Shown in pieces: positions 3,885 through 47,227 of a DNA stretch of 64,000 nucleotides. Position 1 is the stretch's first letter. Every line of letters begins with the position of its first letter. The stretch spans positions 4,903,001-4,967,000 of the forward strand of contig CM060191.1 of NCBI GenBank assembly GCA_030549335.1. Direction: 5' to 3'. Made by a program: the position numbers and the translations under genes. Below the pieces are notes generated by a model. It saw only the letters and a program-made list of their open reading frames with translations, searched no databases and had not been told where the DNA came from. The stretch comes from Pontederia crassipes (taxonomy: Eukaryota; Streptophyta; Magnoliopsida; Commelinales; Pontederiaceae).

Positions 3885-4231
3885 TGAGGAAAAATGAGTA
3901 CGTGAAGCACGTGTGAAACGACCTTAGACATATTTTTCTTTATTTTTTCAATATCTTTCTTTACTAATAGCTTAAATGATCATTCATGATAAGAAAAAAT
4001 AGTTTTATAAAATTAGAAGTTATATAAAATACTTATATCCATTATGATGGATAATAATATGCAGAAATTTGTCAAAATTAAAAAATGATAAAAAAAAATA
4101 TTGTTGATAATTTGAATCATATATTTATTATCCCTAATGATCTTTTAAATTGTCAATGAAGAAAAATGTCGAAAAAAATAAACATAAGTATGTCTAAAGT
4201 CATTTCACACGCGCTTCACACGCTCATTAAA

Positions 4232-24207: not shown

Positions 24208-24390
24208 CAACAACAACAACAACAAAGCCTTATCCCACTAGGTGGGGTCGGCTACATGGATCATACGATGCCATATTCGTTGATCCATGTTCATGAGATT
24301 CGACAGGGTTTTACGCTGGCTGTCGGGGCCTAAGACAACCCTCCTCCTTTATCCGGACTTGGGACCGGCTATAAAACATAGGCGGAGTTG
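24208..24390 (-). mobile_element. SINE-like copy with RTE-type 3' tail (subfamily A)
   Basis: Read on minus: starts AACTCCGCCTATGTTTTATA, includes CCCAAGCCCGGATAAAGG and CGACAGCCAGCGTAAAACCC, and ends with the segment shared with the RTE LINE (CATGTAGCCGACCCCACCTA, GGATAAGGCTTTG) plus a TTG repeat tail. No coding sequence. A target duplication is not clear here. Confidence 0.8.
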
Positions 24391-24898
24391 CTCTAAAAAA
24401 AAAGTAACAATCAAAAGAATGTCAGCACGTGCCATACACTAGTGGAGTTCCATATTCTCCTCTTTGCCGAATATACATTGATGATACATGTGATCGGAGT
24501 TCAAACCTCGACAGTGGCAAGCTTCTCAAATCCCTCTTCTGAAGAATAAAGAATCCTAGAGACAATGCATCTGCTTGACCCGGGATAGAAGGTGAACCAT
24601 TAGGAGAAGCAAAATCAAGTGTGCTTGTCCCCCCCCCCCCCCCCATGGCAAGTCTTTGTGAAATAACTCTGATGGGAAGAAAAAAGAAGGCATTAAGAGA
24701 TCCTCCTGGCCCAACCCTAGACACTCTAAGATCCCCTTCTGGTTTGTTTCGAGAAAGATATCGTCCGACGGTGGGTCTGAAAATGTATCTAAAAGGGTGA
24801 AATTTAGATATTTGCACCCTGTCGAAGTAAGGAACCATGGTAATCCACTGTGACACGTTCACTTAAAAAAAACCACCTCGGATCGTTGGCGAGGAACA
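24391..24898. other. Organelle-like sequence, unassigned
   Basis: A continuous open frame on minus (24862-24422) has no recognised domain. The wording (GAATCCTAGAGACAATGCAT, TGACCCGGGATAGAAGG) reads like plant organelle DNA, possibly mitochondrial. I cannot place it. A 16-base C run lies at 24629-24644. Confidence 0.35.
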
Positions 24899-24901
24899 TT
24901 A

Positions 24902-25560
24902 CAACAACAACAACAAAGCCTTATCCCACTAGGTGGGGTCGGCTACATGGATCATACGACGTCATTCCGCTCTATTAGTAACCAAACCTTTCGGTATATT
25001 ATTCACCAATAGATCTTGCTCTATTAGTTCTCCAAGTGTCCGCCTTGGCCTCCCTTTCCCTCTTTTAATCGGACTCCAGATTATTTGATCTACTCTTCTT
25101 ACTGGCGCATCTAATGGTCTTCTCTGAACATGACCAAATCATCTCAAACGATTTTCTACCATTTTCTCACTAATAGGAGCCACTCCGACTCGTTCACGTA
25201 TATGGTCATATCTAATCTTGAATTATCACACATCCATCTCAACATCCTCATTTCGACTACCCCCACTTTACGTTCATGTTGTCCCTTCGTAGCCCAACAT
25301 TCACTATCATATAACACTGCCGGTCTTATAGCAGTACGATAGAATTTCCCTTTAACTTTATTGGATACTTTTCTATCACAAAGAACTCCAGTGCCTTTCC
25401 TCCACTTACACCAACCATCTTGAATTCTATGATTAACATCGTCATCAATCTCACCATCTTGTCTTACAATTGATCCTAAATATTTAAACTTTGTCACTTG
25501 AGAAATTATATCCTCTCCTAGCCTAACTTCCAAATCGTCTCTAAGTTGTTTCGAGATAAA
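24902..25560 (-). mobile_element. 5'-truncated RTE LINE copy
   Basis: On minus this is the last part of the reverse-transcriptase protein (open to 25156 from 25566) followed by the 3' end and a TTG tail. It matches the longer copy at 26137-28604. It corresponds to LINE sequence from about 27950 onward. The candidate target duplication GAACATTA sits at 24894-24901 and 25561-25568. The reading frame diverges near its end, so the copy is dead. Confidence 0.85.
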
Positions 25561-25568
25561 GAACATTA

Positions 25569-26136
25569 TGAAACAACTTTGCTGACAATTATAGATTTAT
25601 GGATTTTGTATCGAGATAAAACGAATCCGAATAATTCATTGGGTAGGATGGCGGAACAAAGGCGACGCTCTCATCCTTCCTCCGCTCGCCTCTCCTACTT
25701 GATCGACGCTTCCGCCCTTCGCCGCTCGTGACTCTCCCAATTCGCCTATCGTTCCCTCACTTGCTCGCTCCGACCTCCTTGGTTCGCCCTCTCTTCCTAG
25801 CTGTTGCCATATATTTCAGTTGGTGTGTTGCAGAAGGTTGGTACGAGTTTACTCACCCATGTCGTAGTAATTATTATTGATATTGGTGTTGTTTTTTGTG
25901 TTTATTCAATACCTCCGCATTTGTTCTTAGCGAGGCCATACGAAAATGAACAAATTTGTTGGCACAAGACCTGTCAAAGCCAAACCAATCTTGAATAATT
26001 AGGGACATGCAAATTGCATAAGATATGCCATTTTTCTCAAGTATCAGAAGCTCGTCGCTCGCCGGGACAGGAGCTCACCGCCGGGAAACTCGCGACCGTC
26101 GACCTTCCGGTATCAATTTTTTTTGTTTCATGTTTC
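25569..26136. other. Mixed sequence left of the RTE LINE
   Basis: 25570-25650 reads organelle-like. 25660-25800 and 26040-26110 are GC-rich leader-like stretches without a recognised frame. Part of 26055-26080 (GACAGGAGCTCACCGCC) recurs in inverted form near 28696-28722, beyond the LINE, so the LINE may sit inside an older repeat. Confidence 0.3.
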
Positions 26137-28604
26137 ATTGGGGGAGACCTTAATGGACATGTTGGTAATGAGGCAGGACCACATGCAAGGGTTCATGGTG
26201 GTTTTGGTTTTGGGGAGTTGAATGAGGTAGGACAAACTATTATTAATTTTTCTTTAGCATACGACCTTAAGATTATCAACACTTGTTTTAGGAAGAGAGG
26301 TACATTTAATCACATACAAAAGTGGAACTCATAGGTCTCAAATCGATTTTTTCTTGACAAGAAATACTGATAAAAGATGTTGTACTAATTGCAAAGTAAT
26401 TCCTGGGCATGGGGTGACTACACAACATAGATTGTTAATTCTTGATATGCAAATGAAATGTATAAAACCAAAATCTCGAACAGTTTTTTATCGAAAGATC
26501 AAGTGGTGGCAGTTAAAGGGGGAGAAGCGAGAGACTTTTAGAAGTAAGTTATTAGAGGAAAGTGTGTGGGAGTTAGAAGGAGATGCTAGTATCATGTGGG
26601 AGAATGTGGCAAAAAAGGTTGAAATGGTTGCTAAAGCCATTTTAGGAGAATCAAAAGGTTTTGGACCACGAGATAAGGAGACTTGGTGGTGAAATGAGGA
26701 GGTCCAAGAAAAGGTGCGTAATAAGAAGAATTGTTTCAAGGCGATACACTTGGACAATAGTTCTGACAATTGGGAAAAATATCGTTTGGCGAAAAGGGAG
26801 GCTAAGAAGGCAGTTAGTGATGCTCGTGCTAAAGCATATGAGGGGTTTTATAAGGAGCTAGGGACAAAGGCTGGTGAACAAAGGATTTACAAATTGTAAG
26901 GAATAAAGAGAAGGAGTCGAGAGATTTGGATCAAGTAAGATGCATAAAAAATGAAGTTGGCAAGGTTTTAATTACTGAATGAGATATTAAGAACAGATGG
27001 GAAGAGTATTTCTATAAGCTATTTAATGATGGATGTGAAGGTTCCCGTTGTGATTTGGAGGACTTGACAGTTAGCGAATGTGAGCTTAATAAGTCATTTT
27101 ATCGTAGAATTAGAGTATCGGAGGTTAGCGAAGCTCTTAAGAAAATGGAGAATGGTAAAGCCGTTGGACCGGATGGTATACCGATTGAAGTTTGGAAATG
27201 TTTAGGAGAAAAAGATGTGTTGTGATTATGTAAACTATTTAATGAGATTTTACGGTCGAAAAAGATGCCTGATGATTGGAGATTAAGTACATTAGTTCCT
27301 ATTTACAAAAATAAAGGGGATATTCAGAATTGTGCAAATTATAGAGGGATTAAACTTATGAGTCACACAATGAAATTATGGGAAAAAGTGATTGAGCATA
27401 GATTGAGAATGGAGACTAATATTTCTGAGAGACAATTTGGGTTCATGCCAGGAAGATCCACTACAGAGGTGATTTATTTATTAAGGGGGATGATGGAGAA
27501 GTATCGAAGTAGGAGAAGAGACTTACATATGGCTTTCATTGACTTAGAGAAGGCGTATGATCGGGTACCAAGGGATGTACTTTGGAAAGCCTTGCAAAAG
27601 AAGAGGGTGAGTGTTGCCTACATTAAGGTAATACAAGATATGTACGATGGGGCATTGACTAGGGTTAGGACACCCGGAGGTGAAACAAATGAATTTCCTA
27701 TAAGAATTGGCCTACATCAAGAATCAGCTTTAAGCCCGTATCTATTTAACTTAGTTATCGATGCTATAACCGAGAGTATCACAGAGGAGGTACCTAAGTG
27801 CATGCTATTTGCGGATGATATAGTACTTTTAACGGATTCAAGAGAAGAGATTAATACAAAATTGGAAATATGGAGAAATACGTTGGAGTCAAAGGGTTTT
27901 CCTTTAAGTAGGAATAAAACAGAATATATGCATAGCAATTTCACAAATAAACAACTTAGAGACGATTTGAAAGTTAGGCTAGGGGAGGATATAATTCCTC
28001 AAGGACAAAGTTTAAATATTTAGGATCAATTGTAAGACAAGATGGTGAGATTGACGACGATGTTAATAATAGAATTCAAGCTGGTTGGTGTAAGTGGAGG
28101 AAAGTCACTGGAGTTCTTTGTGATAGAAAAGTACCCAATAAAGTTAAAGGAAAATTCTATCGTACTGCTATAAGGCCAGCAGTGTTATATGGTAGTGAAT
28201 GTTGGGCTATGAAGGGATAACATGAACGTAAAGTGGGGGTAGCCGAAATGAGGATGTTGAGATGGATGTGTGGTCATACAGTATTAGATAAGATTAGGAA
28301 TGACCATATACACGAACGAGTCGGAGTGGCTCCTATTAGTGAGAAAATGGTAGAGAATCGTTTGAGATGGTTTGATCATGTTCAGAGAAGACCATTAGAT
28401 GCGCCAGTAAGAAGAGTAGATCAAATAATCTGGAGTCCGATTAAAAGAGGGAGAGGGAGGTCAAGGCGGACACTTGGCGAACTAATAGAGCAAGATCTAT
28501 TGGTGAATAATATACCGAAAGGTTTGGTTACTAATAGAGCGGAATGACGTCGTATGATCCATATAGCCGACCCCACCTAATGGGATAAGGCTTTGTTGTT
28601 GTTG
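26137..28604 (+). mobile_element. RTE-clade LINE, 5'-truncated, broken
   Basis: The order is endonuclease/exonuclease/phosphatase-type domain (GGDLNGHVG from 26146, QIDFFLTRN, TTQHRLL) with its first part missing, a linker, and reverse transcriptase (from about 27140; VGPDGIPIEVWK, YRGIKLMSHTMKLWEKV, LEKAYDRVPR, FADDIVLL at about 27808, then the GWCKWRK and RMLRWMCGH segments). The 3' end is CCGACCCCACCTAATGGG with a short TTG repeat. This is the plant RTE family. Stop codons (for example near 26331, 26691, 26897, 27224 and 28220) and frame changes (near 28010) break it. No target duplication was identified. Confidence 0.9.
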
Positions 28605-29351
28605 GATCATCAAAAGGTTGTACTTTTCCGTTTGGGTTAGTTGTGCCGTTTGTGTTAGTCAGTGAGGTTGGCGGTGATCGAGCAAGGGCGGCGAGGTCGC
28701 CGGTGAGTGAGCTCCTGTCCTAGGGCACAAAATGCAAAACACAAAATGCAGAGGGCGACGGAGGTCGACGGCTAGGTGGAGCGCGAAGCGACCACAGGTC
28801 GTGCGTGAGTGTTGGCAGCGAGGTCAGGCGAGACCGCGCCTGCTGACGAGGTGAACCGCTGGCCGTCGATCGACGGACGCCGACATAGATAGGGGCGTGG
28901 ACGCCCCTTAATCCTTCATGACACCAAGAATAATCTGAATATCTGATATTGGATATGCCCTTTTTTGTGTTTTAACTGACTTACTATTGGATATGTTTTT
29001 TGTTCTAGTCTTACCTTACTATTGGGACATGATCTTTTTCTTTTGTTGGTGTTAACTGACTTACTTTTGTATCCAACCTTTCTAATTTTTCCTCAAGAGT
29101 ATCCATTTGTTGCCCAGAAGGTAATCTCATGATTTATTTGTTCAAACACGAAGCTACTTTTCGTAAAAAGAAAAGTAAGCTGCTCAAACTTTTGTGGTTT
29201 TTTACTCTGATATTCTCTTGTTATAGGGTTTGTTATAGCCATCTCACCGAAGAATGATGTGCCAAGTTTGTGAACTATGAAATTGTAACCGTAGAACCAC
29301 GAGTGATGTGTCTACGACCTTGATGCACGAATCCTATCCTTGTCTGCTTCG
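28605..29351. promoter_or_regulatory. Upstream region of the ferredoxin reductase gene
   Basis: GC-rich from 28650 to 28910, then AT-rich up to the gene. No frame is recognised. The promoter and 5' leader of the gene at 29352 must lie here, but I cannot point to a specific TATA box. Confidence 0.3.
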
Positions 29352-32300
29352 ATGTCCAGGAGTCTGTTCACATCATCTCTTTCTGCTTCCGCTTCCGCAA
29401 CAAACAAAGGATCTATGAGTCGGTTGCTTGGTCTTCGCCTTTGGGGTAAGCTGATACGGCAAGATCTTTGTTTTCCAAGTCGCCGGATGCTTCATGTTTG
29501 CATTGTCGGTAGTGGACCTGCTGGATTCTACACTGCAGAAAAGGTGCCTTTCCTAGTCTTCTGGAATAAAAAAAATAGTTCTTATATTCTCAAGAAAAGC
29601 TACCAACTGCAGAGAGACCAAACTTGTATTTTGATTCTAACCATATCACTTTTAATAAACTTGTTCATATATTTTTTTGAGGGCAACTCGTTCATATATG
29701 GTGTCATGCTATATGGGTAGTAGGTTCCTCTTGTTGTTGCGTGCTATTTTTATGCACAAGTTTTCTTGTAAAAGAAAATTCTCAAAAACTGTGGATTCAT
29801 GTTCAGGTGTTGAAAGCTTGTGAAAAAGCTCAGGTTGATATCCTTGAACGCCTGCCGACGCCATTTGGATTGGTCCGTTCTGGGGTGGCACCTGATCATC
29901 CAGAAACAAAGGTAAGTTATGACCTTTAGTTCAAGTGGATATATTGATTTCATTGTTGCAATCATTGTGGACACTAAGATAAGATGTACACAGTAAGAGC
30001 TAAAGATCAAGTGGACACGAGGAGGTGGAGTCGAGCATGGATTATTATTTATTTTTTCCATGTCTAGAACTATCATATCTGTTCAAGGGTCATTCTTTTG
30101 GCAATCATTCAAAAGTTGCAGTATCTTTAAGAGTCAGTTCCATCGGAGGATATTATACAAAGGATTTAATATTCATGAGGAAGCAACTGACTGATTAGCT
30201 AATTTTCTGTGTTTAGAACTATGATATCTATTCAAGAATCATCTTTAGTGGGAAGTGAAAGTTGTGAATTCAAGCGTTCCATGAAATATAAAGCCAATTC
30301 GATTCATGGATGAGCAGTTATTCTTATAAGTTCTCGACATTTGAGATGCACATGAACACAATTTGCAACTATGACTTCCAGAAAAAAATTGCAAATATAG
30401 ATGCAAGATTAGATGGCACTCAGAATTATCAGTCTTATTGATCTCAATCAATACATGTGTGTTAAGGGCTATTCCTATAAGAATGTACTTAGAAATTAAC
30501 ATTTATGTCTTCAAATATTCGTTTTATAAGAATCTGAAATAGAAAATTAAAATATCTTTCCAGTTTCTAGAAGATCATCAGTAGAACATGCAATTCATCC
30601 TAAAAAAAACTAGGAATTGCATGCAGTTGTCTTAGTTACTGATAAAAAGTGTCAGGGGTCATCTATGTTTTGTAAAAACATAAATTCAGTTTACCCAATT
30701 TTTTTATTTCATTGTATGTGTCATCAATCGTTTGTTCTGCCCCTCAAAAAATCTTTTATTCTGTCAATATTTCAGTCATCCTTCACTTTGCAAAATCACT
30801 CCTCCGTACTTGTATGAACTCGAATGCAGGGGAGGCCCACCTCCCATAAGGGAATGCAAGGGCCAAAATAATCAAAATATCTTACAATTCAATAAGCATG
30901 GATCCCATTAACAATAATATGTTGATGAACAATAATTCATGATCATGCCGATTAAAAAACAATAGTATTAATCCACTTATAATGCCCAATTCAATTTCAT
31001 TAGTGACTTGAGCACCGATTAAATGGCAACCTTATGTCCAATTGACCTTTTGGCGCAGCGCTAGGATCTAACGAGAATAAAGAAGACAAAGGATACGAGG
31101 ATAGACTGAAGTACTATCCAAGATGACAACAAACAGAATTCTGGTGTTTGAAAACTAGCGAATCCACGCTATAAACAAATGTTAATTTTTGAAGTAAAGA
31201 TGAGATCTTCTTTTCTCTATTCATTGGCCTTTTTTTATTATTGACTATTACAACAGTCTCTACTTTAGGAAATAAAAAAAGTAAATACGAATTAAGGAAA
31301 CATGAAATATTAAAAATAACTAATGAGCTAATAAATCAGCCATCTGATTAATTCCAGCTGATTAGTGTCATTATTATGATATGACCTCCTAATCAGCTTC
31401 AGCCAAGATTGTGTTAGGATTTGATCATTATTATGATATCCAAGATTGTGTCAAGATTTGATCATGATTATGATATGATTTCCTATTAATCAGCAACAAC
31501 CAAAATTGTACCAAGATCCGTGGGACGTCCTACATCAGTCTCCCCTTCTTCAAAAGAGTTCGACCTCGAATTCTGAAAGTCAAATCCGAAGGATCATGTT
31601 TCACATCTGGCAATGGTCCTGTTTTCTTTCTCAACTTCACATACGAATCAATTAAACCAAGAAGATGGTAGAGTAGTATCAAATAATAGGATATTGTCCT
31701 TAAAACTTGATTTGAAAATGCAATCTGCTGAAAGATAAAACTTTTGGCATCGACGAAAACTTTCACGCATTTCATATCAACTTGAAGTATTTGAAGCAAA
31801 TCTCTTTTATTAGTTGACGAAGTTAACCACAACTTTTCATCCACCTCTTTAATACATTTGTCTTCTTTCTGCTTAGAAAGAAAGCCCACAGTTGCTAATT
31901 CTTCAAATTTTGGATTGAACATAATATCTTCAGCAATTTGATTTCACAAGCCACAACTTCATCCTCACAATCTAACACAGATTCTGATATCACAATCTTC
32001 ACATGACTTGGATATTTAACAATTTCTTCATCACAATCTTCTACATCATCATCAATTCCAGAAGAGATTTGATCAGCCTCATTAGTTTGAGTAAAATAAA
32101 TTGGAGATCGCTGTGGACATTCATTGGAATGATGACCTGCTTGGCGGCAACGATAACAAATCACTTTATGAGGTTTAGAATACCCAGAAGGCCTTCTTGT
32201 AGTTGTTGCTCCACTTGGTTTGTTGCTGGTGGCGGAAGAGGTGACTGAAATTTTGCAAGGAGCCGTGTTCTCTTGTGCAGGTTGTCGAACAAGTTTCAGG

Positions 32301-35300
32301 TCAGCAAGACGTGCAGACTCAGAACCTCGGTAGTTGGATCTAGAACCCCTATCAAGTTGACGTTCCACTTTCTCGGCAAGGGTGATAGTGTCCGACAACG
32401 TGTAAGTGGTACATGTCAACCCGATCACGAATTATAGGGCGTAATCCACCAATGAAACATACAATCTGTTGTGGTTCAGACTTCAGCAGATTATTTCTGG
32501 ATAGAAGCCTGTAACACTCAGTGGTATAGACGCTCACGGAACGACTACCTTGTCTGCAATCTTGCAGTTGATGGAATAAAATTTGCTCATAGTCAGGAAG
32601 AAGGTTTCGGGCTCGCAGCAATTTCTTCATTTTTGGCCAGGACTGCACAGGTTGTGTTGCCTCATGCGTGACAGTTGAATTTGTTCCCACCACGCAGAAG
32701 CACCTCCCTTCAGTCGATACGCAACAAGCTTTACTTGTTTGCATTCAGGGACCTCCATGTACTAAAAAAATCTCTCAACTTTAGGCAGTCAGTCGAGGAA
32801 GTCCTCGATGTGAAATTGGCCATTGAAGGATAGAAGGTCCATCCTCATTTTGAAATCTGGTTGGCGTGTTGCACGATGCTGAACGGGATCGTCAGCATCA
32901 TCGTCACTATCAGCGGGGCGTCGTCGAAGGGCTTGGGCCCGACGAGGGGGTCTTCGTTCTTCACGATCATGCAAGAGTAACTCGAGAGATTCATGGATGC
33001 ACTGTAGCATTTCCTTCATCTCCTTTAACACAGCACGAGTAGGTTTGTCTGCCATTATTCTCAATGCTCTGATACCAATTGGCACAGCACCAGGATCTAA
33101 CGAGAATAAAGAAGACAAAGGATACAAGGATAGACCGAAGTACTATCCAAGATGACACCGAACAGAATTCTGGTGTTTGCAAACTAGCGAATCCACGCTA
33201 TAAACAAATGTTAATTTCTGAAGCAAAGATGAGATCTTTTTTTCTCTATTCATTGTCCTCTTTTTATTGAGTATTACAACAATCTCTACTTTAGGAAATA
33301 AAAAAAGGAAACATGAATTAAGGAAACGGAAAATATTGAAAATAACTAATGAGCCAAGAAATCAGCCATCTGATTAATTCCATTGTCATTATTACGATAT
33401 GATCTCCTTCTAATCAGTTATTATGATATCCAAGATTGTGCCAGGATTTGATCATAATTATGATATGATTTCCTGTTAATCAATAACAATCAAAATTGTG
33501 CTAAGATCCGTGGGACGTCCTACATCACCTTTGTGTTCATATGTTCAAACCACTAATTTAGTTCAATTGAAGTTAAACTTTTAACTTCTTGTTCTTTTAG
33601 CAAACATTAGACAAACATTTTTAATGAACCTTTCCACTAATTGAGGTTCTTGGCTTGCCTTGACGTCGATTATGGCTGGCCAAGCCGGGTTGCACTTGTA
33701 CCCAATTAACATCAAATGACATCTACTTTGGCATGCCACATCATCCAATGTAAACACCTCATCACAATAAATATGTTATTATTTATTTGTGCGTCCTCTC
33801 TATCTCTCTCTCTTTGCTGGACCTAGCTTTTATGGGCTGCCTGCAAATGACTCAATCGCTCCTTAGAGGTAGCAGAGCAGGACAGAGTTCTGAGTACCAT
33901 TTTCTAGTTAAGACAGTGAGAACAGAAAAATTATAAACTCCAGCATAATAGCAGATAGTAAAAAAAAGAAACCTATGCAAATGTCATATGCATTTAAATC
34001 ATATGGTTTACAAATATGGATTTATAAATATGAAGTAATGACAATTGTAGACTTTTTACATCAACACACTTTTCTTGAAAAAGTTTCAATGAACAGAAGC
34101 ATAATTCTGCTTTCTATCACATAATATGATAGAAATAATCTTTTCCAGAGGATGCAGCTCTTGTGGTGTCCTGAAGATTGGAAAAGAGGGATTTCAAAGC
34201 ATGAATTTGATATGTTCATGCTTTATGATTTCTCCCGTAAACCATGATGACATCAGATTTGACGTTCATATGAGTTACACATTACTCTGCCGTGGAGATG
34301 CGGCTGGAGAGCCAATTGTGGGTTAGGACCTGAGTCTGCAATGCCGACAGCCAGAGGACTCCGAATGGAATCTCAGGTCCAGCATGCAGAGGAACCAGAG
34401 GTTGGCAACGGGGCTCGGAATGAGGCCGGCGATCAATTTTCCGATGAGGATGAGAAAGTGGAGGTTCAGCAGGAGAGCTCTGCAATGGTAGTGAGTTGTA
34501 CGAGGGAGTTAGTAGGACTACTGGAGATGGCAAAGAGTTGGAGGAGGATGAAGAGTAGGGATACCATGTAGATGAGGTATTTGAATTGGATGATGTGGCA
34601 TGCTGTGTTGATATCATTTGATTATATGAGTCAATTTAACAGAAGGATGACTAAAATATTGACATAATAAAATATTGATGACCCTTAAATAACAAACAAC
34701 AACAAAGCCTTATCCCACTAGATGGAGTCGGCTACATGGATCATACGACGCCATTCATTCGTTGATCCATGTTCATAAGATTCGACAGAATTTTACGCTG
34801 GCTGTCGGGGCTTAACACAACCCTCCTCCTTTATCCGGGCTTGGGACCGGCTATAAAATATAGGCGGAGTTATTGATGACCCTTAAAATTAAATAAAAAA
34901 TTGAGTGACCTGAATCATGTTTTTACAAAACTTGGATGGCCCCTAACACTTTTTATCCCATAGTTGCAGTAAATGTTTCTTATTGAGCTCAGTTTATCAG
35001 AAATTTGGCAACAGATTGTGGTGAACCAGTTCTCTCGGGTCGCTTCACATGAAAGGTGCTCTTTCTTTGGCAATGTATCACTAGGTTCCAGTGTCTCTTT
35101 AACTGAGCTTCGTGAGCTGTACAATGTGGTAAGTTTCTGAAAACTCAAGGATTTAAGATCCCTCTCGATCTTCCTACTTCCTAGTAATCTTTTTCCATGT
35201 CTAATATCCAGTAGGCTACTAGCATCTTATAATTCAGTTTGTAGTGAGGGGCATAAAGACTTAAATCTTTCCTGAAAGTATTGACTCTGAGATTTGATCT

Positions 35301-37092
35301 TAAGACTTTTTCTTTCCAACTCGATATTCAGTTGAATAAACCAATTGTTGATACTTTTCTGGCTAGTCATCATCTCCTAGTCTTTTTTGTTTGACAAATT
35401 ATGAGCAGGTTGTGCTGGCTTATGGTGCAGAAAGCGACAGATCTCTAGGCGTGCCTGGTGAAGTGAGTTGATTTCTCTCACTTAAATATGCAGAAAATTC
35501 ATCAATGTACCCGTTCCTAAAATTTCCCTTGATGTCTCAAGACAAATGACTATAAACCATTTGTCACAAAGTGAGTCAATACACTCAACACAAGCACCTG
35601 GTTGATTACACCTAAGCAATTGAAAACAATCTTGAGAATATCCTAGTTAATTTTTGTCTTTGGTTCATTCTGTCTAAAACATTTAGAAGACATACCTAAT
35701 AGCAACTGTCTAGAATAAGGGGGTGATCTCTACTCATTCCTTAGGTGTGTGTCATGATATAATGGGCCAAATAAATGAAAATAATGGTAGTACTTAAGGA
35801 TAACAACAACGACGACGACAAAGCCTTATCCCACTAGGTGGGGTCGGCTACATGGATCATACGACGCCATTCCACTCTATTAGTAACCAAACCTTTCGGT
35901 ATATTATTCACCAATAGATCTTGCTCTATTAGTTCGCCAAGTGTCCGCCTTGGCCTCCCTCTCCCTCTTTTAATCGGACCCCAGATTATTTGATCTAATG
36001 GTAGTACTTAAGGATGAAGAAGTAAATTTGCATTGCATGTGCCCTTTTTCCATATAATCATTTTATGAGATGAGATCATGCTGAAATCTTAAAACTCACA
36101 TTTTTCATGCTAACTTGCTGGAACCAACATTGCGACATAATTAAAGTTGTAAACGGTTGCATTACTTGCATCATGATGAAATAAAGTTCATGAAGGCTGT
36201 GTTTGTTTTGGTAAACAAAACTTCTGGAGGAAAATAAATTTGGAGAAAACTGTTCCAGGAAGATAGTTTCTTTTTGTTGTTTGGTTATGAAAAAAATATT
36301 TAAAAAAGTAAGTTAATTCTTTTTGTACTATACATGACAGACAATGTGTGACTGGAAATGTTCCCTTTCTTAAAATTGTGTGCAACTTTTTGGTCATAAA
36401 CAATCGTTGGCCAGGACTTCTCTGGTTGCTGAACTCAGAAAATGGGAAATATGTTTTCTTAAAACTGTTTTTGATGAAGCATAACACAACAACAACAACA
36501 AAGCCTTATCCCACTAGGTGGGGTCGGCTACATGGATCATACGACGCTTTGTTGATCCATGTTCATGAGATTCGACAGGGTTTTACGCTGGCTGTCGGGG
36601 CCTAACACAACCCTCCTCCTTTATCCGGGCTTGGGACTGGCTATAAAACATAGGCGGAGTTGAGTTCAGTATCTACATCATTTCCATTTTTTTGCATGGG
36701 GTCTGAAAGTTCCAACATGCATTCCTCCGATGTCCGTATTAGGTTGACTGCTTTAGCTGCCTCTTTATTAGTTTTGTTGCGTGGAGATCGTCTCAAAATA
36801 CCTTGGTTTATGGTTTTGGTTTTGGTTTTGGATAATCTGTTTCCTTGGTTCTCTTTTGCTCCACCTTGTTTCTTGTCAGTGGCTTCCGAAGCATCAACTG
36901 TAACCTTTCCGCTAGTTCTTGATTTTTGTGCTTCTTTTTCATCAGCTTCTTCCATGTGTCTTGCAGCTATATGCTTGTCTTTTTTAGCTTTGTTGCATTA
37001 TTTTTTAGCTTTGTTGATGAAGCATAACATTCCATTTTTTTTTTAGGAAGGGATGACTACTGAGGTTTGTAGGTTGTCATCCATGTGTGTGC

Positions 37093-37134
<42 letters not shown>

Positions 37135-40100
37135 ACATGAAATGATCGACAAGTATAATTGTAGCCTCTCGAGAAAAGAGTAAAAAAAAGGGAAATGTGA
37201 GTCCCTAACCAAATCTCCATTCCTGAAGAAGAAATGAGATGTGTACATTACTCCCCACCTGACATCGCTTCTCACAAAAGATAACCCGATTGCGCTGCTG
37301 TCAGATGGCTCAAATACTAGTCAAAAAGGTCTCTAATGATGCTCTCCAACTCTGTCTATGTCCAAAGGGACTGCCAGATGATGCTCTCCAACTCTGTCTA
37401 TGTCCAACAATTGCTCAAAGGGATTGCCAGATGTCTCTGACACTGATGGAAGTGTGCTCATAGTGGTCGTCTGTCACCAAACCTCTCGGGATACAGGGTA
37501 GTCAAAGAATAAGTGAGCAATGTCCTCCTTGTCCTTGCCACATTGCATGCAAGATGTGTCACTGTGGGGCGCCCATCTCGTCCTGTATACTCTAGTCATA
37601 ACGCATGAGCCAAGCAAAGAGCTTAACCTCTAATGGAACTAGGGAGCACCAAAGAAGTTTGCAATTCACCTTGAATGTGTTTGAGGATGTAGAGGTAGAG
37701 AATGTAAGCTGAAAAGGACTTTTATATTTACGCACAACCACCCGGCCTGGAGGGGTATGGGGGAATGGGGCAATCGCTGGTTTGACAGTGGGGGGCTGAA
37801 GCTTGGGGTCCAAGAGCCAGTGCCAAGGCCACTGGCTTCGCTTTCAACTAGGTCTCTGCCACCATCACGCCAGGATGTGCTGCCAGGGCCTATGCCGAGG
37901 GAACGCCGTTGCTAGCAGGCCCCAGGTAATCAGTCTTGCTGTCAAAATGGGAAGGTCTCTGAGGCCCCACGTGGCAGGATGTTCTTGGACCCCCAAGATA
38001 GGTCACACCCATAACAAGTAAAAAACATCGCATGCTACAAACTGTTCTCGGGCCCAATGATCAGCCCCATCCACCAGGCTAGGGGAGTCCAATTATAATG
38101 AAGGTATTGAATGTCCAATCCTCCCTATGAGGTGAGTTGATGTACGTTGTAGATGGACTCCTCGCCAGTAAAAATTGCGACCCTATGAAAAGAATTTGCT
38201 CTTCAAAGAATCTATCCGCCTCAAGACCTGGTTAGGAATCCGAATGATTGACATATAGTGGGTCGGGAGTACAGAGAAGACCGATCAGAGTAGGATGAGC
38301 CGGCCACCACGTAACAATGGTCTCGAACTCCACCCCTCTAGTATGTGCTCCAACTGCCCGATGACCGGGAGGTGATGTGGTGGTCGAAGACCCAAATATG
38401 TGAGCGTTAGGGTACTGGTCAGGGTGAAGCTCGTTCGTGCAGCAAGCTGCTTCATCAGTAACCATGCCACTGTTCAAATTTGTTGAATTGTGTTTCTCCT
38501 ATTTGCAGTATGTTCTAGTTATGAATTTTTACTACTAAATTTTCTATTTGCATCTGGCAAGTAAAAACTCATACATACTAGAGGAAAATAGGATTGTAGT
38601 GCACTGTGTACTGCACCAATTTTACTTCTAAAATCTACTTATTTTATGAGTTAAACAGTGTTTTTTTGTCATGATCACGGTTATTGGATAGTTCAGTAGT
38701 AACAAAAAAAACATTTTATTGAACTTGTTAATTGGATAATCACATCTCTCTGACCTTTTGCGTTTGAATTTTCCTCAAAAAAAACTTGTGATGGGTTTGA
38801 ATGTGATGCATCCCTGCCAAGTTAATTCAATGGCCAAAAGTAGTGTACTATTCGAGGTGTAATGCTAGGTGCATTACATTACCATTTTACTTATATTTTT
38901 TTCTTTATCATTTTATATTGTAGAATTTGAGAGGGATACACTCAGCTAGAGAATTTGTATGGTGGTATAATGGGCATCCTGACTGTTATAACATGTTACC
39001 TGACTTGAAGAGGTCAGATACTGCTGTGGTTCTTGGGCAGGTATGTTGCTTTGAAGTTGCAGCTGGATCTCATTGACCTAGTAACAAACTTGTGGACATT
39101 GTATAACAATTTAGTTCATAGAGTAGCATGCAGCAGATACATGTATATGCAATTGAATGTTCATTCTTTATCATCCATGTCTATGCAATTGAATGCTTAT
39201 TATGTATCATCCAAGTTTTCCCTTTTCCCTACTGATTAGTTCAAGGAAATTCCATCTCAAAAAATAATAAATAAATAGATAAATAATAAAAGATTTGTGT
39301 TACCCTAGTTGATAGCTATAAGTTGATCAATTTTTTGACGAAGTATAACATGATCATTTGTTACCTTATCTATCTTCTACAAATGTAATTACTATATTAA
39401 CTAAAATATTTCCTTTGAAAGATACTAATAACATCATTTTCAGGGTAATGTAGCTCTTGATGTTGCACGCATTCTTTTGCGGCCAGTTACTGAGTTGGAA
39501 ACAACTGATATTGCTGAACATGCTTTGGTTTCTCTGCGTGAGAGCACCATAAGGTTTGGTACTTGAATGGATTAAGGATTTATTTTCCTTTCAGTTGAAA
39601 TTTTGCATCAATGGCACTTGAATTTGGTGCTTATCGTGTCACCCACTTTTCAAAAGGAAGGTTTACTTGGTCGGAAGGCGAGGCCCAGTGCAGGCAGCTT
39701 GCACGGCCAAAGAACTGCGTGAAATTCTTGGTAAGAGTTTGTTTTATTGGATAAACACAAGATTGTGTTGTTGTCCTTTTACCTTTCAAACAAAGAGTTT
39801 GTTTTCTTGCTCAAATTTGATTGCATTTGCTGCTTGTTCCTATTAGAAAATTGTCTTTAATGTACTTTAACTGAAAAGTCTATCAGATTACCTATTTTGT
39901 GAATATTATGCACACAATGGATAACCTTTTGGAACATGTTCTAAATATTTCGTATTTTGAATCATCGTGATTGTTCACTCAGTTTACAATGTGAATGCAT
40001 TAAGGGAAATATTGGATTGTAAAAAAAAATATTTAACCTTCTTTACTGTTTATGCAGGTCTAAAAAATATTCAAGTGTGTGTTAAAGAATCTGACCTAAT

Positions 40101-43100
40101 TACGTCTCCAAGGGATGAGGTATATATCAGTTGTTTTGTAATTATCGACCTCTTCCATTTGGGCTTTCTTCATTAGCTTCCGTATATGAGGTGCTACCAG
40201 TAATTGGTTGGTTTATTTGGTTAGGTTTAACCCCGGAAAGAGGTCATAAGATCAAATTCCGGAAGTATTCATTGATGTCCTTACGTCAAACTAGATTAGT
40301 CAGGGCTCAATGGGCCTCTGGATATTAAGGTTAGCACCTAAAAAAAATAATGCGATGTTATACGTATTGGGCTTCTAATTTCTTTTATTAATTCAAAACA
40401 TATTCCCACACTTTATCCCATCTTAAAGTTCTGATTATGTCTTAAATTCAGAACATTTCTCCTTCCACTTCAAATGATGTGACTTTGGACATCTAATATC
40501 ATATGAATATATTATTTAGTACTTTCTCAAAAAAAAATTGTACTACCGTATGCTACAAATTTCCTAATGACGTCCACTAGTGACAATAAACAATAGGCTT
40601 CTGGTCTTGATGACAAAGTTAAATTCTTCGTAGCAATTATGCCAGTGGTCAAATGACATTTTCTATTATTTATCTCCATCGAGTGCCTTTCTAATTCTAT
40701 TTAGCATCTTAGCTGAAGAAATTATTTTCTTTGTAGGAGGAACTAAAAGGTAACAGAATACACAGACGAGTTTATGAGTTATTATGTAAAGCAGCAACTT
40801 CTAGTCGGGAAGACTACATTGCTGAACCTCGAGAACTCCAGTTCGCGTTCTTTAGGAGTCCTAATAGCTTTTTACCCTCTGATGATGGATGCAATGTTCG
40901 AGCTGTACGCTTCGAGGAGACTCAATTAAAAGGTTACACTTTTAAGTCATTCACACAATCACACTGTTATTTTCTTTTTGGGTTGTTCTGTTGGACATTA
41001 CCTAAGCACTCTTTGCATGCCCATTGCAAGATATCTGTGAAAACAAATGTTTTAGAATACTTTTATAATGATCCTGATTATGGATTAACATTCTTTTTCA
41101 CCAGAAGATGGTTCTGGAAAGCAAATTGCAATTGGGACTGGAAGGTTCGAGGACATTGAATGTGGGTATGTTTGTTCAGTGAGGTTACTAGAGATTTTCT
41201 TTGTTCAACCAAGTTTCCAAAACGTACTTTCTGGTGTTTAGGCTGGTGCTCAAGAGCATTGGTTACAAGTCACTGCCAGTTGAGGGATTGCCATTTGATG
41301 AGCATAGAGGTCAGTCACAAACTTAACCTTTTGTATCCTGTGAATGATCATATAAGTATGAAATATAGGTTGCATCAAAGTTAACCTATATTTTCACTCA
41401 GTTTTGGAAAAAAAAAAATTTTTGGCACTAAGTCACAAGTAACGTTAGTTACTTGTTTTGGAACTGATATGTTCTATGCAAAATGAAATTACTAGTTGCA
41501 ATTGAGATGTATGAATGATTGCAAAACTATGAGGTTCACTCACTAGCTAGGTAAATGGTTATCTTCTATCGAGCTGATTCTGGATTTTTGTTGCAACCCA
41601 GATCATAATTGGACTTCCATTATTTCTTTATTTGTTCGGAGCTTGGGCGTGGGTGGTTGGAGGTTTGAAGTGCATTAGGCCTATATTTTGCTGTAGTTTT
41701 TCTTTGGCCAATTTGATGTCAGCCCATCAATTCCAACTATGTGATCTCACTTACTTAAAACAAGCTGATATAACTGCAAGTGCTATAGTGGTTTCTTCTT
41801 TTGAGAGGGAAAACTATAGTGGGCTGTCTGGCCCAATTTAGTTGAGAGTCCTAAATCTAGTACACCTTTCAGCATCTGCTGAATCCTGCCTCCCCTTTTC
41901 TCAAGGTGAAATCCACAGTTGGAATTGCAATGAGTCTGCCTAGTTTAAGTTGTTGAATGACAAATTTCACCTGGGGATATCTACAAGTGAAGTCAGTGGG
42001 TTTCACTGCAAAAGATGCCATGACATATTTCAATTTATGTGTGCTATCAACTTTATCTGCCATATCGTCACACAATATATCGTTTCATCCGCAATGTGAT
42101 GTGTGAAAGGTTAATACATTTTTTCACTGCAAAAGATGCCATGACATATTTCCATTTAGGTGTACTATCAACTTTATCTGCCATATCGTCACACAAATAT
42201 ATCGTTTCATCCGCAATGTGATGTGTGAAAGGTTAATACATCTTGCATTTATTGCTCCACTTGTAATGTAAAGTAGAGAAAGTGAGCCTCAAGTACAACA
42301 AATAAATGGATGTATAATCTTGTGTTTTTGAACCTTTGGAAAAAAAAGGAAAAATGGTGGCTATGCAGCAAATTAATCACAACCAAACTTTAGATTCTTG
42401 TGAAAAAGAAACACTAAAGGTTTAATTTGCTTAGTTCTACATCGAAGCATATGCTTAGTTCTTATGACGATTCAGTCAAATTCTTTTGTTCGTTTGTATT
42501 ATTATGATTGATGTCTAGATTTCTCTGGTAGGTGTGCTGCCCAACATAAGAGGTAGAGTGCTCAGCGGTGATCGTCCAGAAAATGCCAATGTGGAGCAAA
42601 GGTTATATGTAGTTGGATGGTTGAAAAGAGGACCAACAGGAATAATTGGGACTAATCTCCATTGTGCTGAGGAAACTGTAAGTTCAATTAATACCATGTC
42701 ACATTCAAAAGTTAACCAATTTTATTAGTAAAGCATACATGAAGAGAACATCTTCATGGAGAACCAGAAATTTGGTAACACTTGATAACTTGCATCACAA
42801 ACAAAACTTTCCATCTGAGAAATAAGATCGTTGGCCTTATCAGACATCCTGTTGGGCATAACCAAGGTCTAGTTAAAAAAGTTTCTGCCATTCGGGGAAT
42901 CAGTATTCACATATTTATTTTAAAGTTCATGTAACTTACTAATATGAACACAAATCGTTGGCTGTTCCAGGCCATCATTAATTCATATGTTGCTGGAAAT
43001 GACAGGTATCCAGTATTCTGGAGGATCTTCAGAATGGATTGAACACTGTGACACCGAAACCAGGGAGACAAGGCCTTCTCCGAGTCCTAGAAGAAAAGAA

Positions 43101-43245
43101 CATCAGATTTGTGCCATTTAGTGATTGGGAAAAGATTGATTTCTGGGAGAAGACAGAAGGCCATCTGAGAAACAAACCAAGGCAAAAGCTAACAACATGG
43201 AACGAGCTCCTTACTGCTGCAACTGGATCAGGGGTACAAAGCTAG
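29352..43245 (+). CDS. NADPH:ferredoxin (adrenodoxin) oxidoreductase, mitochondrial
   Basis: The flavoenzyme passes electrons from NADPH to mitochondrial ferredoxin for Fe-S cluster assembly and related steps. Thirteen exons with consistent phases: 29352-29543, 29807-29911, 35015-35128, 35409-35462, 38924-39040, 39444-39553, 39657-39730, 40058-40119, 40737-40932, 41105-41165, 41242-41309, 42532-42677 and 43006-43245. They give 512 aa, a little longer than the Arabidopsis homologue. Residues 1-45 are Ser/Arg/Leu-rich like a mitochondrial presequence. Then come [13 protein letters not shown] (FAD), [59 protein letters not shown] (NADP), [23 protein letters not shown] and [22 protein letters not shown]. 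The ATG at 29352 is chosen; the frame opens earlier only with a non-ATG codon. Introns 2 and 4 are large and full of transposons. No exon is damaged, so I expect a working gene. Confidence 0.95.
31051..33527 (-). mobile_element. Small gag-only LTR retrotransposon in intron 2 of the ferredoxin reductase gene
   Basis: The LTRs are 31051-31537 and 33080-33527 (about 490 and 450 bp) with a perfect 5 bp target duplication CCTTT (31046-31050 and 33528-33532). On minus, the 5' LTR is the right one; the primer-binding site TGGTATCAGAGC follows it and a purine tract precedes the left LTR. Between them lies only a gag-like region (about 33127 to 31895) with a retrotransposon gag segment and a CCHC zinc knuckle. 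No protease, reverse transcriptase or integrase fits in the 1.5 kb. Family: Ty3/Gypsy-like gag, non-autonomous (TR-GAG style). It looks broken in a few places. The LTRs differ visibly, so it is moderately old. Confidence 0.88.
33533..34672. other. Intron 2 sequence without recognised features
   Basis: A short CT repeat lies at about 33796-33820. The open frames at 34282-34617 (minus) and 34341-34571 (plus) are without recognised domains. Nothing else supported. Confidence 0.5.
34690..34870 (-). mobile_element. SINE-like copy (subfamily A) in intron 2
   Basis: Same family as 24208-24390. A 17 bp target duplication TATTGATGACCCTTAAA flanks it (34673-34689 and 34871-34887). This proves insertion as a unit and fixes the 5' end at the AACTCCGCC start. 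Confidence 0.9.
35802..35995 (-). mobile_element. 5'-truncated RTE LINE 3' end in intron 4
   Basis: This is the last 194 bp of the RTE LINE with its TTG-type tail (some repeats changed to GAC), read on minus. A perfect 20 bp duplication beginning TAATGGTAGTAC flanks it (35782-35801 and 35996-36015), a textbook product of target-primed reverse transcription. Confidence 0.93.
36487..37013 (-). mobile_element. Chimeric retro-insertion: SINE fused to a foreign gene-like fragment, intron 4
   Basis: A single 16 bp duplication TTGATGAAGCATAACA (36471-36486 and 37014-37029) encloses both a SINE copy (36487-36661) and about 350 bp of other sequence (36662-37013). On minus, the extra sequence comes first and holds an open frame (from about 36955) rich in Lys, Glu and Asn, with an RRSPRNK motif, running into the SINE. 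It has the look of a cDNA piece of a nuclear protein gene. Since one duplication encloses both, they went in together. Confidence 0.85.
37088..37132. repeat. TA microsatellite in intron 4
   Basis: About 20 TA repeats preceded by a short GT run. Confidence 0.95.
37480..38470 (-). mobile_element. L1-type LINE remnant in intron 4
   Basis: On minus, 38470-38285 encodes a segment like the C-terminal part of plant L1 reverse transcriptases (TYLGL...[18 protein letters not shown]). 37690-37500 encodes a zinc-binding segment ([19 protein letters not shown], then a C-x2-C...H pattern) typical of the end of these proteins. The frame between is broken by stops. The 5' part is missing and no tail or target duplication was found. 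Confidence 0.7.
41999..42241. repeat. Tandem 121 bp duplication in intron 11
   Basis: Two copies (from about 42001 and 42122) beginning TTTCACTGCAAAAGATGCC and ending in GAAAGGTTAATACAT differ at a handful of bases. No effect on exons is seen. Confidence 0.9.
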
Positions 43246-45240: not shown

Positions 45241-45262
45241 TTTAAATTGAGCTATAATCTGA

Positions 45263-45460
45263 TAACTCCGTCTATATTTTATAGTCGGACCCAAGCCCGG
45301 ATAAAGGAGGAGAGTTGTGTTAGGCCTCGACAGTCAGCGTAAAATCCTGTCGAATCTCATGAACATGGATCAACGAATATATTTGATTACTAATAAAGCG
45401 GAATGGCGTCGTATGATCTATGTAGCCGATTTCACCTAGTGTAATAAGGTTTTGGTGTTG
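45263..45460 (+). mobile_element. SINE-like copy (subfamily A), plus orientation
   Basis: Starts at AACTCCGTCTATATTTTATA and ends in the RTE-type tail. It carries the longer LINE-like segment TTACTAATAAAGCGGAATGG. The 16 bp target duplication TTGAGCTAT(A/C)ATCTGA has one mismatch (45247-45262 and 45461-45476). Confidence 0.85.
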
Positions 45461-45476
45461 TTGAGCTATCATCTGA

Positions 45477-47061: not shown

Positions 47062-47217
47062 ACAACAACAACAACAAAGCCTTATCCCACTAGGTGGAGT
47101 CGGCTAAAAAATCCATATTCATGAGATTCGACAGGGTTTTACGTTGGCTGTCGGGGCCTAACACAACCCTCCTCCTTTATCTGGGCTTGGGACCGGATAT
47201 AAAACATAGGCGAAGTT
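47062..47217 (-). mobile_element. SINE-like copy (subfamily B)
   Basis: Same family, but on minus the middle reads CATATTCATGAG reversed into GGATTTTTTAGCCGACTCC; that is, a segment present in subfamily A is missing. The copy at 61316-61417 has the same change, so the two form a subfamily. A clear target duplication was not found. A GC-rich block directly adjoins its 5' side. Confidence 0.8.
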
Positions 47218-47227
47218 ATTTTTTTCT

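Follow-up and report, generated by a model that had tools for sequence, protein, structure and literature searches.

How did a SINE and a piece of an unrelated gene come to lie together inside a single target-site duplication in an intron? We examined this question in a 64,000-nt stretch of contig C9 of Pontederia crassipes (4903001-4967000; the window), using a genome of 1.13 Gb for the searches. The initial annotation had described a minus-strand SINE preceded on its 5′ side by about 350 bp of foreign sequence, and had offered template switching or 5′ transduction as the origin.

Structure of the insertion

The 16-bp direct repeat reported around the SINE and its 5′ sequence was confirmed as one target-site duplication with copies identical at 16 of 16 positions (Table 1). 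Along the minus strand from 37029 to 36471, read directly and by script, the duplication TGTTATGCTTCATCAA is followed by 13 nt, TA, the gene sequence (337 nt), the SINE (175 nt), and the second copy of the duplication. The SINE and the 352 nt on its 5′ side (37013-36662) are both enclosed, and the single copy expected at the empty site is TTGATGAAGCATAACA. As a chance control, 2550 wrong pairings of the 5′ and 3′ flanks of the sampled SINE copies, scored as pairs rather than individually inspected, gave displaced matches of at least 12 in 12 pairings (0.5%) and of at least 16 in 5, together with 20 displaced matches of 11 bp and 5 near matches of at least 9. Since matches of at least 16 occurred in only 5 of 2550 wrong pairs, a 16-bp match in the right pair is very unlikely to be due to chance. 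An earlier control (69 of 2162 pairs with displaced matches of at least 12) was dropped because it contained repeat-bearing flanks and kin. Among the candidates scored in a search with the right flank, none was a syntenic empty site; besides the window and its own TA repeat, only repeat-like matches of 64–89% were returned. This TA repeat (37094-37140) is close to the insertion and overlaps a weak Rfam match to mir-297 (37079-37141).

The annotated 350 bp proved foreign to the SINE as claimed, but they are not one clean fragment: the 352 nt are a composite of the gene piece, TA, and a repeat of the same piece at 37001-37013, which together with the CAA ending the duplication makes a 16-nt repeat (CAACAAAGCTAAAAAA). 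At the SINE-side junction, the sequence is GATACTGAACTC|AACTCCGCC, while the donor gene described below continues GAACTC|AAGG, and two bases (AA) are thus assignable to either the gene piece or the SINE. Five shared bases were also considered for this junction and rejected, since both AACTC copies are present and only AA is common. At the far junction, TA and the second CAACAAAGCTAAAAAA stand before the gene copy, whose first base corresponds to base 4101 of locus L009; the CAA of this second CAACAAAGCTAAAAAA is common to the duplication. Re-copying with extra bases fits a template-changing reverse transcriptase, or templated repair. The statement that every other complete SINE in the window begins with AACTCCGCC held for the copies at 24211-24389 and 34691-34871 and failed for those at 47063-47217 (AACTTCGCC) and 45264-45466 (AACTCCGTC).

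The insertion lies between matches to adrenodoxin reductase exons, all on the plus strand and one of them weak (E 0.03), which bears out the placement in an intron of another gene. It is antisense to this host gene, and an antisense self-cutting RNA would presumably not cut the host transcript. The frame 29307-29720, overlapping the first exon region, gave no match, and the exon region 40737-41159 had no Pfam match.

Table 1 Features of the insertion, its surroundings in the window, and the displaced duplications of sister insertions.
Feature	Position	Strand	Remarks
3′ copy of 16-bp target-site duplication (SINE sense)	36471..36486	-	direct reading and script
175-nt SINE	36487..36661	-	head resembling a twister; tail of (TTG)n; P4 strand of the ribozyme match has the CCAG variant
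SINE 3′ part common to TTG-tailed LINE 3′ end	36487..36546	-	100% to 24902-24961 over 60 nt
twister-P1 match (RF03160)	36607..36666	-	Rfam scan, 52.5 bits, E 7.6e-11, gathering score 67.2
Gene fragment, sense strand	36662..36998	-	copied from C3:6606100-6606439 with 1 substitution and simple-repeat differences of +3 and -6 nt
Two extra bases (TA)	36999..37000	-	separate gene fragment from re-copied stretch
Re-copied stretch CAAAGCTAAAAAA	37001..37013	-	16 nt of the fragment's own 5′ part, counting the duplication's last CAA
5′ copy of 16-bp target-site duplication (SINE sense)	37014..37029	-	direct reading and script
twister-P1 match, 5′-complete SINE	34817-34876		Rfam scan, 69.2 bits, above gathering score
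twister-P1 matches, three other 5′-complete SINEs	24335-24394, 47163-47222, 45259-45318		Rfam scan of window
LINE copy	26258..28604	+	RVT_1 in 27226-28023, E 6.9e-33; last frame ends 28547, then ~57-nt SINE-like 3′ end
Adrenodoxin reductase exon region	29681..29929	+	residues 24-59 of 1cjc_A, E 1.1e-6
Adrenodoxin reductase exon region	40737..41159	+	residues 240-305 of 1cjc_A, E 0.03, weak
Adrenodoxin reductase exon region	43003..43245	+	residues 390-455 of 1cjc_A, E 3.8e-8
Displaced duplication, window	352 nt upstream
Displaced duplication, L004/L059	728 nt upstream
Displaced duplication, L031/L058	235-236 nt upstream
Displaced duplication, L039/L066	395 nt upstream
Displaced duplication, L034/L061	231 nt upstream
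Displaced duplication, L052	462 nt upstream		11-bp match, weakest
Displaced duplication, L046	250 nt upstream		16-bp match on one of two inverted copies; no duplication of either class on the other

Donor of the gene fragment

A whole-genome search with the 352 nt (36662-37013) found six places: the insertion itself and copies of 97% (C3), 92% (C4), 81%, 72%, and 72%. With so few places, the 352 nt are indeed unrelated to the SINE, and the possibility that they belong to the consensus of a longer SINE or LINE family, which had been named as a ground for dismissing a captured gene piece, was rejected. The closest match, on C3, lies inside an exon-like open frame of 311 codons. Its exon limits, as we read them from a flanking AG and GT, would enclose the copied piece. 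The RRSPRNK motif noted in the Lys/Glu-rich frame of the insertion is present in the donor frame as well; a Pfam search of the latter gave no family. Gene sense and SINE sense coincide.

The donor on C3 runs uninterrupted through the point that matches the SINE junction and has no SINE there, and in this assembly the 92% copy on C4 likewise lacks one. The copied stretch falls within one open frame and spans no intron that could have been lost; that its template was RNA is therefore a presumption. Being frame-internal and free of poly(A), the piece differs from a processed pseudogene, which would have the 3′ end of an mRNA and poly(A).

A predicted ribozyme head and a LINE tail

Other copies of the SINE made up 42 of the 45 matches listed in a genome search, with up to 99% identity over the full length. 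The start of the SINE is covered by a match to the twister-P1 ribozyme model that scores below the gathering threshold and is absent from the initial annotation. Four P1 bases and one U of the model precede the SINE, and SINE base 1 (36661) directly follows the predicted U|A cleavage site; the predicted P1 thus lies in flanking DNA, outside the SINE. In all five 5′-complete copies of the window the match starts 5 nt before the SINE, and a match was found in 16 of 16 further loci, which had been chosen for holding the SINE. Among the scanned copies, only the one at 34817 in the window and L027 (67.2 bits, at the gathering score) reach this score. The SINE of the insertion carries a change at a conserved P4 position. 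In a review (PMC6154101), stem P1 of twister is called dispensable for cleavage, and reduced activity is reported for mutations in P1, P2, and P4.

An Rfam scan of 36400-37100 gave the twister and no tRNA, and 1996 and 1948 of 2000 shuffled sequences scored at least as well as the best matches to the Pol III A box and B box, respectively. Neither boxes beyond chance nor the tRNA-like head of a classical tRNA-headed SINE was thus found. Au SINE, whose 3′ end is a short run of T (PMC3747384), was rejected as an identity for the element, which has a (TTG)n tail instead and no tRNA-like head.

Over its last 57–61 nt, the SINE coincides with the 3′ ends of three LINE copies (at 24902, 28604, and 35807). 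The copy ending at 28604 has a reverse transcriptase domain; frames 26258-26692 and 25156-25596 had no Pfam match. A 3′ end shared with a putatively autonomous LINE, as in SIDEs, is therefore present, at 95–100% identity and beside an RVT_1 domain. Judging from the TTG tail, which is given for all seven plant RTE families listed in PMC3747384, the partner LINE is presumed to be of RTE type. With its predicted ribozyme and LINE tail, the SINE looks like an RTE-type, SIDE-like element comparable to the SIDEs of R2.

Sister insertions with displaced duplications

From the listed SINE matches and the copies in the retrieved loci, we collected 51 insertion events with at least 85% identity and 150 nt and with the 5′ end reached to within 8 nt. 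Rows that agreed in their 40 upstream bases or in the 3′ flank were collapsed, so that L039, L066, L067, and L068 form one row. Scoring by script placed the duplication at the SINE start in 34 events, upstream in 6, and in neither position in 11. Looser scans found near duplications in four of the last group (window 34871, L040, L025, and L064, the last 8 nt away). In the final split, the duplication lies at the SINE start or no more than 12 nt away in 38 events and 231–728 nt upstream in 7 (Table 1); the remaining 6 were assigned to neither class (window 24389, L062, L055, L050, L037 [685], and L038 [1552]). Accordingly, the layout claimed for the window, with a host-gene piece added 5′ of the SINE and enclosed in the same duplication, stands, and it recurs in other copies.

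Several loci of this sample showed further arrangements. In L046, the same SINE with its 250-nt addition is present at 1486-1660 and 2404-2578 in inverted orientation, apparently through an inverted duplication. L031, L032, and L033 (C4:51.23-51.28 Mb) represent one displaced insertion in three near-identical copies that lie within about 50 kb. Upstream of the SINEs at L062 4234 and L055 1498 lies sense exon-plus-intron-like sequence, with no duplication within 1000 nt; we read these two as long transductions or old insertions.

By our reading, the additions of L031, L039, L034, and L052 appear to start in open frames of sense orientation, after which come GT and sequence resembling an intron. 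In Pfam searches, the L052 addition resembled a PA domain (E 2.9e-9) and that of L039, below the cut-off of 26.9, a CRT-like transporter (E 0.042, 13.3 bits); the L031 peptide had no Pfam match, and no clear open frame was seen in the L004 and L046 additions.

For three of these loci, a second locus joined in the same way was found. In the source candidate for L039, C9:25171049 (L068), a sense-oriented SINE is flanked by a 14-bp duplication of its own; the C10 paralog of this locus (93%) has an empty site. A further locus, C9:46232963 (L067), equals C9:25171049 over 2075 nt (99.5%) up to the SINE tail and then continues in unrelated sequence, as a longer transduction would; no duplication around this copy was found in the DNA examined. 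At L039 1130, the carried piece starts at most 3 nt from an AG resembling the 3′ splice site of the donor exon, which may reflect either chance or a stop at the splice site. For L004, C6:21009679-21010578 matches the addition and the SINE in one piece, and a 94% copy on C5 has the addition without this SINE. For L034, C1:10347777-10348126 matches bases 57-406 and runs into the SINE; the first 56 bases are unmatched on C1 and hold a 27-nt repeat of the addition. The assignments for L004 and L034 consist of match positions, and which locus would be the source was deduced from the displaced duplication of the presumed daughter alone. These patterns fit a gain of 5′ sequence by 5′ transduction at L039, L004, and L034. 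The three apparent transductions in turn imply that the SINE may be transcribed within longer host transcripts.

The displaced copies were also considered as template switches throughout; this does not apply to L039 and is unlikely for L004 and L034, given their second loci. A non-U base at position −1 was rejected as the cause of failed cutting, since the seven displaced SINEs have no common base at that position (C, T, A, C, T, G, T). CCAG replaces CCGG at the conserved P4 position in 6 of the 51 events (window, L005, L037, L004, L031, and L064). Additions occur in 3 of these 6 and in 4 of the 45 others (Fisher p 0.028), or in 3 of 6 versus 4 of 39 when the events in neither class are left out (p 0.039). 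As the comparison was picked after inspection of the data, the 51 events were themselves selected by similarity to the CCAG copy of the window, and the CCAG copies may share one lineage, this excess is a hint.

Origin of the insertion in the window

The SINE and the gene piece are probably the product of one target-primed retrotransposition. An alternative in two events, namely an ordinary SINE insertion followed by entry of the gene piece between the duplication and SINE base 1, would require insertion at that exact position with no duplication of its own, as well as the same layout at six other events; with nothing specific in its favor, we consider it very improbable.

Within a single event, we favor, if with modest confidence, template switching in which the reverse transcriptase, on reaching the 5′ end of the SINE RNA, jumped to the gene transcript. 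The twister would free the SINE RNA from a longer transcript, and the enzyme of an RTE-type LINE would reverse-transcribe it from the TTG tail. At the 5′ end of the SINE RNA, the enzyme would jump to the transcript of the C3 gene at two shared bases (AA), copy about 337 nt of it, add two extra bases, and re-copy 16 nt, and the product would be joined to the target via three shared bases (CAA). As expected of template switching, one duplication encloses both parts on the same strand, and the donor is free of the element at C3 and C4 in this assembly. The re-copying with extra bases also fits a jumping enzyme. Against a jump, the two shared bases at the jump point are weak, L034 also has a repeat, of 27 nt, at its 5′ end, and the 16-nt re-copy could stem from end-joining repair. 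The ribozyme, moreover, is a prediction, and the window copy combines a score below the Rfam gathering threshold with the changed P4 position.

The same junction features were weighed for a patch at the DNA level, in which repair of the 5′ junction of an ordinary SINE insertion drew on genomic DNA or cDNA of the gene as filler. Although the 16-nt re-copy, the extra bases, and the CAA overlap resemble templated filler at an end-joining junction, 337 nt is in our judgement long for filler, and the piece is joined exactly to SINE base 1 in gene sense; the additions of L031, L039, L034, and L052 are in sense, too. We regard such a patch as improbable.

5′ transduction, a second route that may account for three other loci, is the more serious alternative. 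Here, an uncut copy would be transcribed together with upstream DNA and carry it along; in two of the three transduction-like loci (L039 and L034), the carried DNA looks like exon plus intron. Applied to the window, the SINE would once have stood in sense in the C3 exon, on another haplotype or a lost allele, and an uncut transcript would have been reverse-transcribed. As the three traceable displaced sisters all have a joined second locus, the base rate favors transduction for the window also, and the window SINE belongs to the CCAG class, in which additions appeared enriched in the comparison chosen after looking. In contrast, the assembly holds no such source: the donor is uninterrupted, the 352-nt query has no other close copy, and no locus with the element at the junction was found as it was for L039, L004, and L034. 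The source would also have been a sense insertion in an open frame, whereas the additions of L039 and L034 look like exon plus intron. We consider transduction rather unlikely for the window. The reverse transcriptase jump is preferred because the source needed for transduction would be an exon insertion missing from the assembly. With no SINE at this point of the donor, the window case resembles template switching more closely. Both origins first proposed thus remain the best candidates, with three sisters fitting transduction.

Relation to known systems

In Drosophila, ribozyme-headed R2 elements have 5′ ends with U12 snRNA or tRNA added by a template jump (PMC3414825). The R2 SIDEs of that report resemble the SINE studied here in having a LINE 3′ end as well as a 5′ self-cleaving ribozyme and dependence on co-transcription, the latter two being predicted here. 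In contrast, R2 and its SIDEs have an HDV-like ribozyme and an rDNA target, whereas a twister match, dispersed targets, and protein-gene cargo were found here. Truncated but competent twisters are described in a 2020 review (PMC7761336), as work in preparation, to be conserved at the 5′ ends of RTE elements; these share the twister position and the RTE-type tail with our element, which is, however, a 175-nt non-autonomous one.

Among chimeric insertions, mammalian LINE-1 chimeras include 17 mRNAs, with 15 of 17 gene loci free of intronic LINE-1 (PMC13174262). As in the window, the 5′ side of a retroelement is joined to a gene transcript in sense orientation; unlike it, mostly first exons are involved, many with splice signals, whereas the piece here is exon-internal and attached to a SINE through another enzyme type. 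The WEIRD/Mg-SINE/MGL chimeras of Magnaporthe (PMC2104539) also contain a SINE inside one duplication and include single and double template switches, but their partner is a non-coding RNA in a fungus instead of a gene piece. The nearest plant precedent found is that of the Sadhu chimeras of Arabidopsis (PMC2848041), in which a non-autonomous retroposon is likewise joined to extra non-element sequence ascribed to template switching or transduction; Sadhu differs in its poly(A) tracts and in extras of 19 and 150 bp, and no donor gene is named in the text available. In the accessible text of a 2026 review of gene capture in plants (PMC13317346), none of SINE, LINE, RTE, and non-LTR is present as a whole word in this singular form. 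Our literature search, which covered few subscription journals, found no report of the combination seen here.

Retroelement-borne gene fragments are usually described as isolated cases. Here, the duplication is displaced in 7 of the 51 events sampled for one common element, whose predicted ribozyme head provides an explanation that can be tested. We tentatively propose, as a possibility that we hold less firmly than the jump itself, a promoterless plant SINE family that lives off host transcripts: the twister frees it, and failure of cutting or a jump carries gene exons or introns along, so that ribozyme efficiency would set the rate of fragment shuffling. If this is true, more than one in ten young insertions carry extra host sequence, and the CCAG lineage with its weakened ribozyme would leak more. 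If ribozyme strength governs the carriage of upstream sequence, the natural variants within one genome would amount to an experiment on exon and intron shuffling, and they would also inform on the tolerance of sense self-cutting copies in introns.
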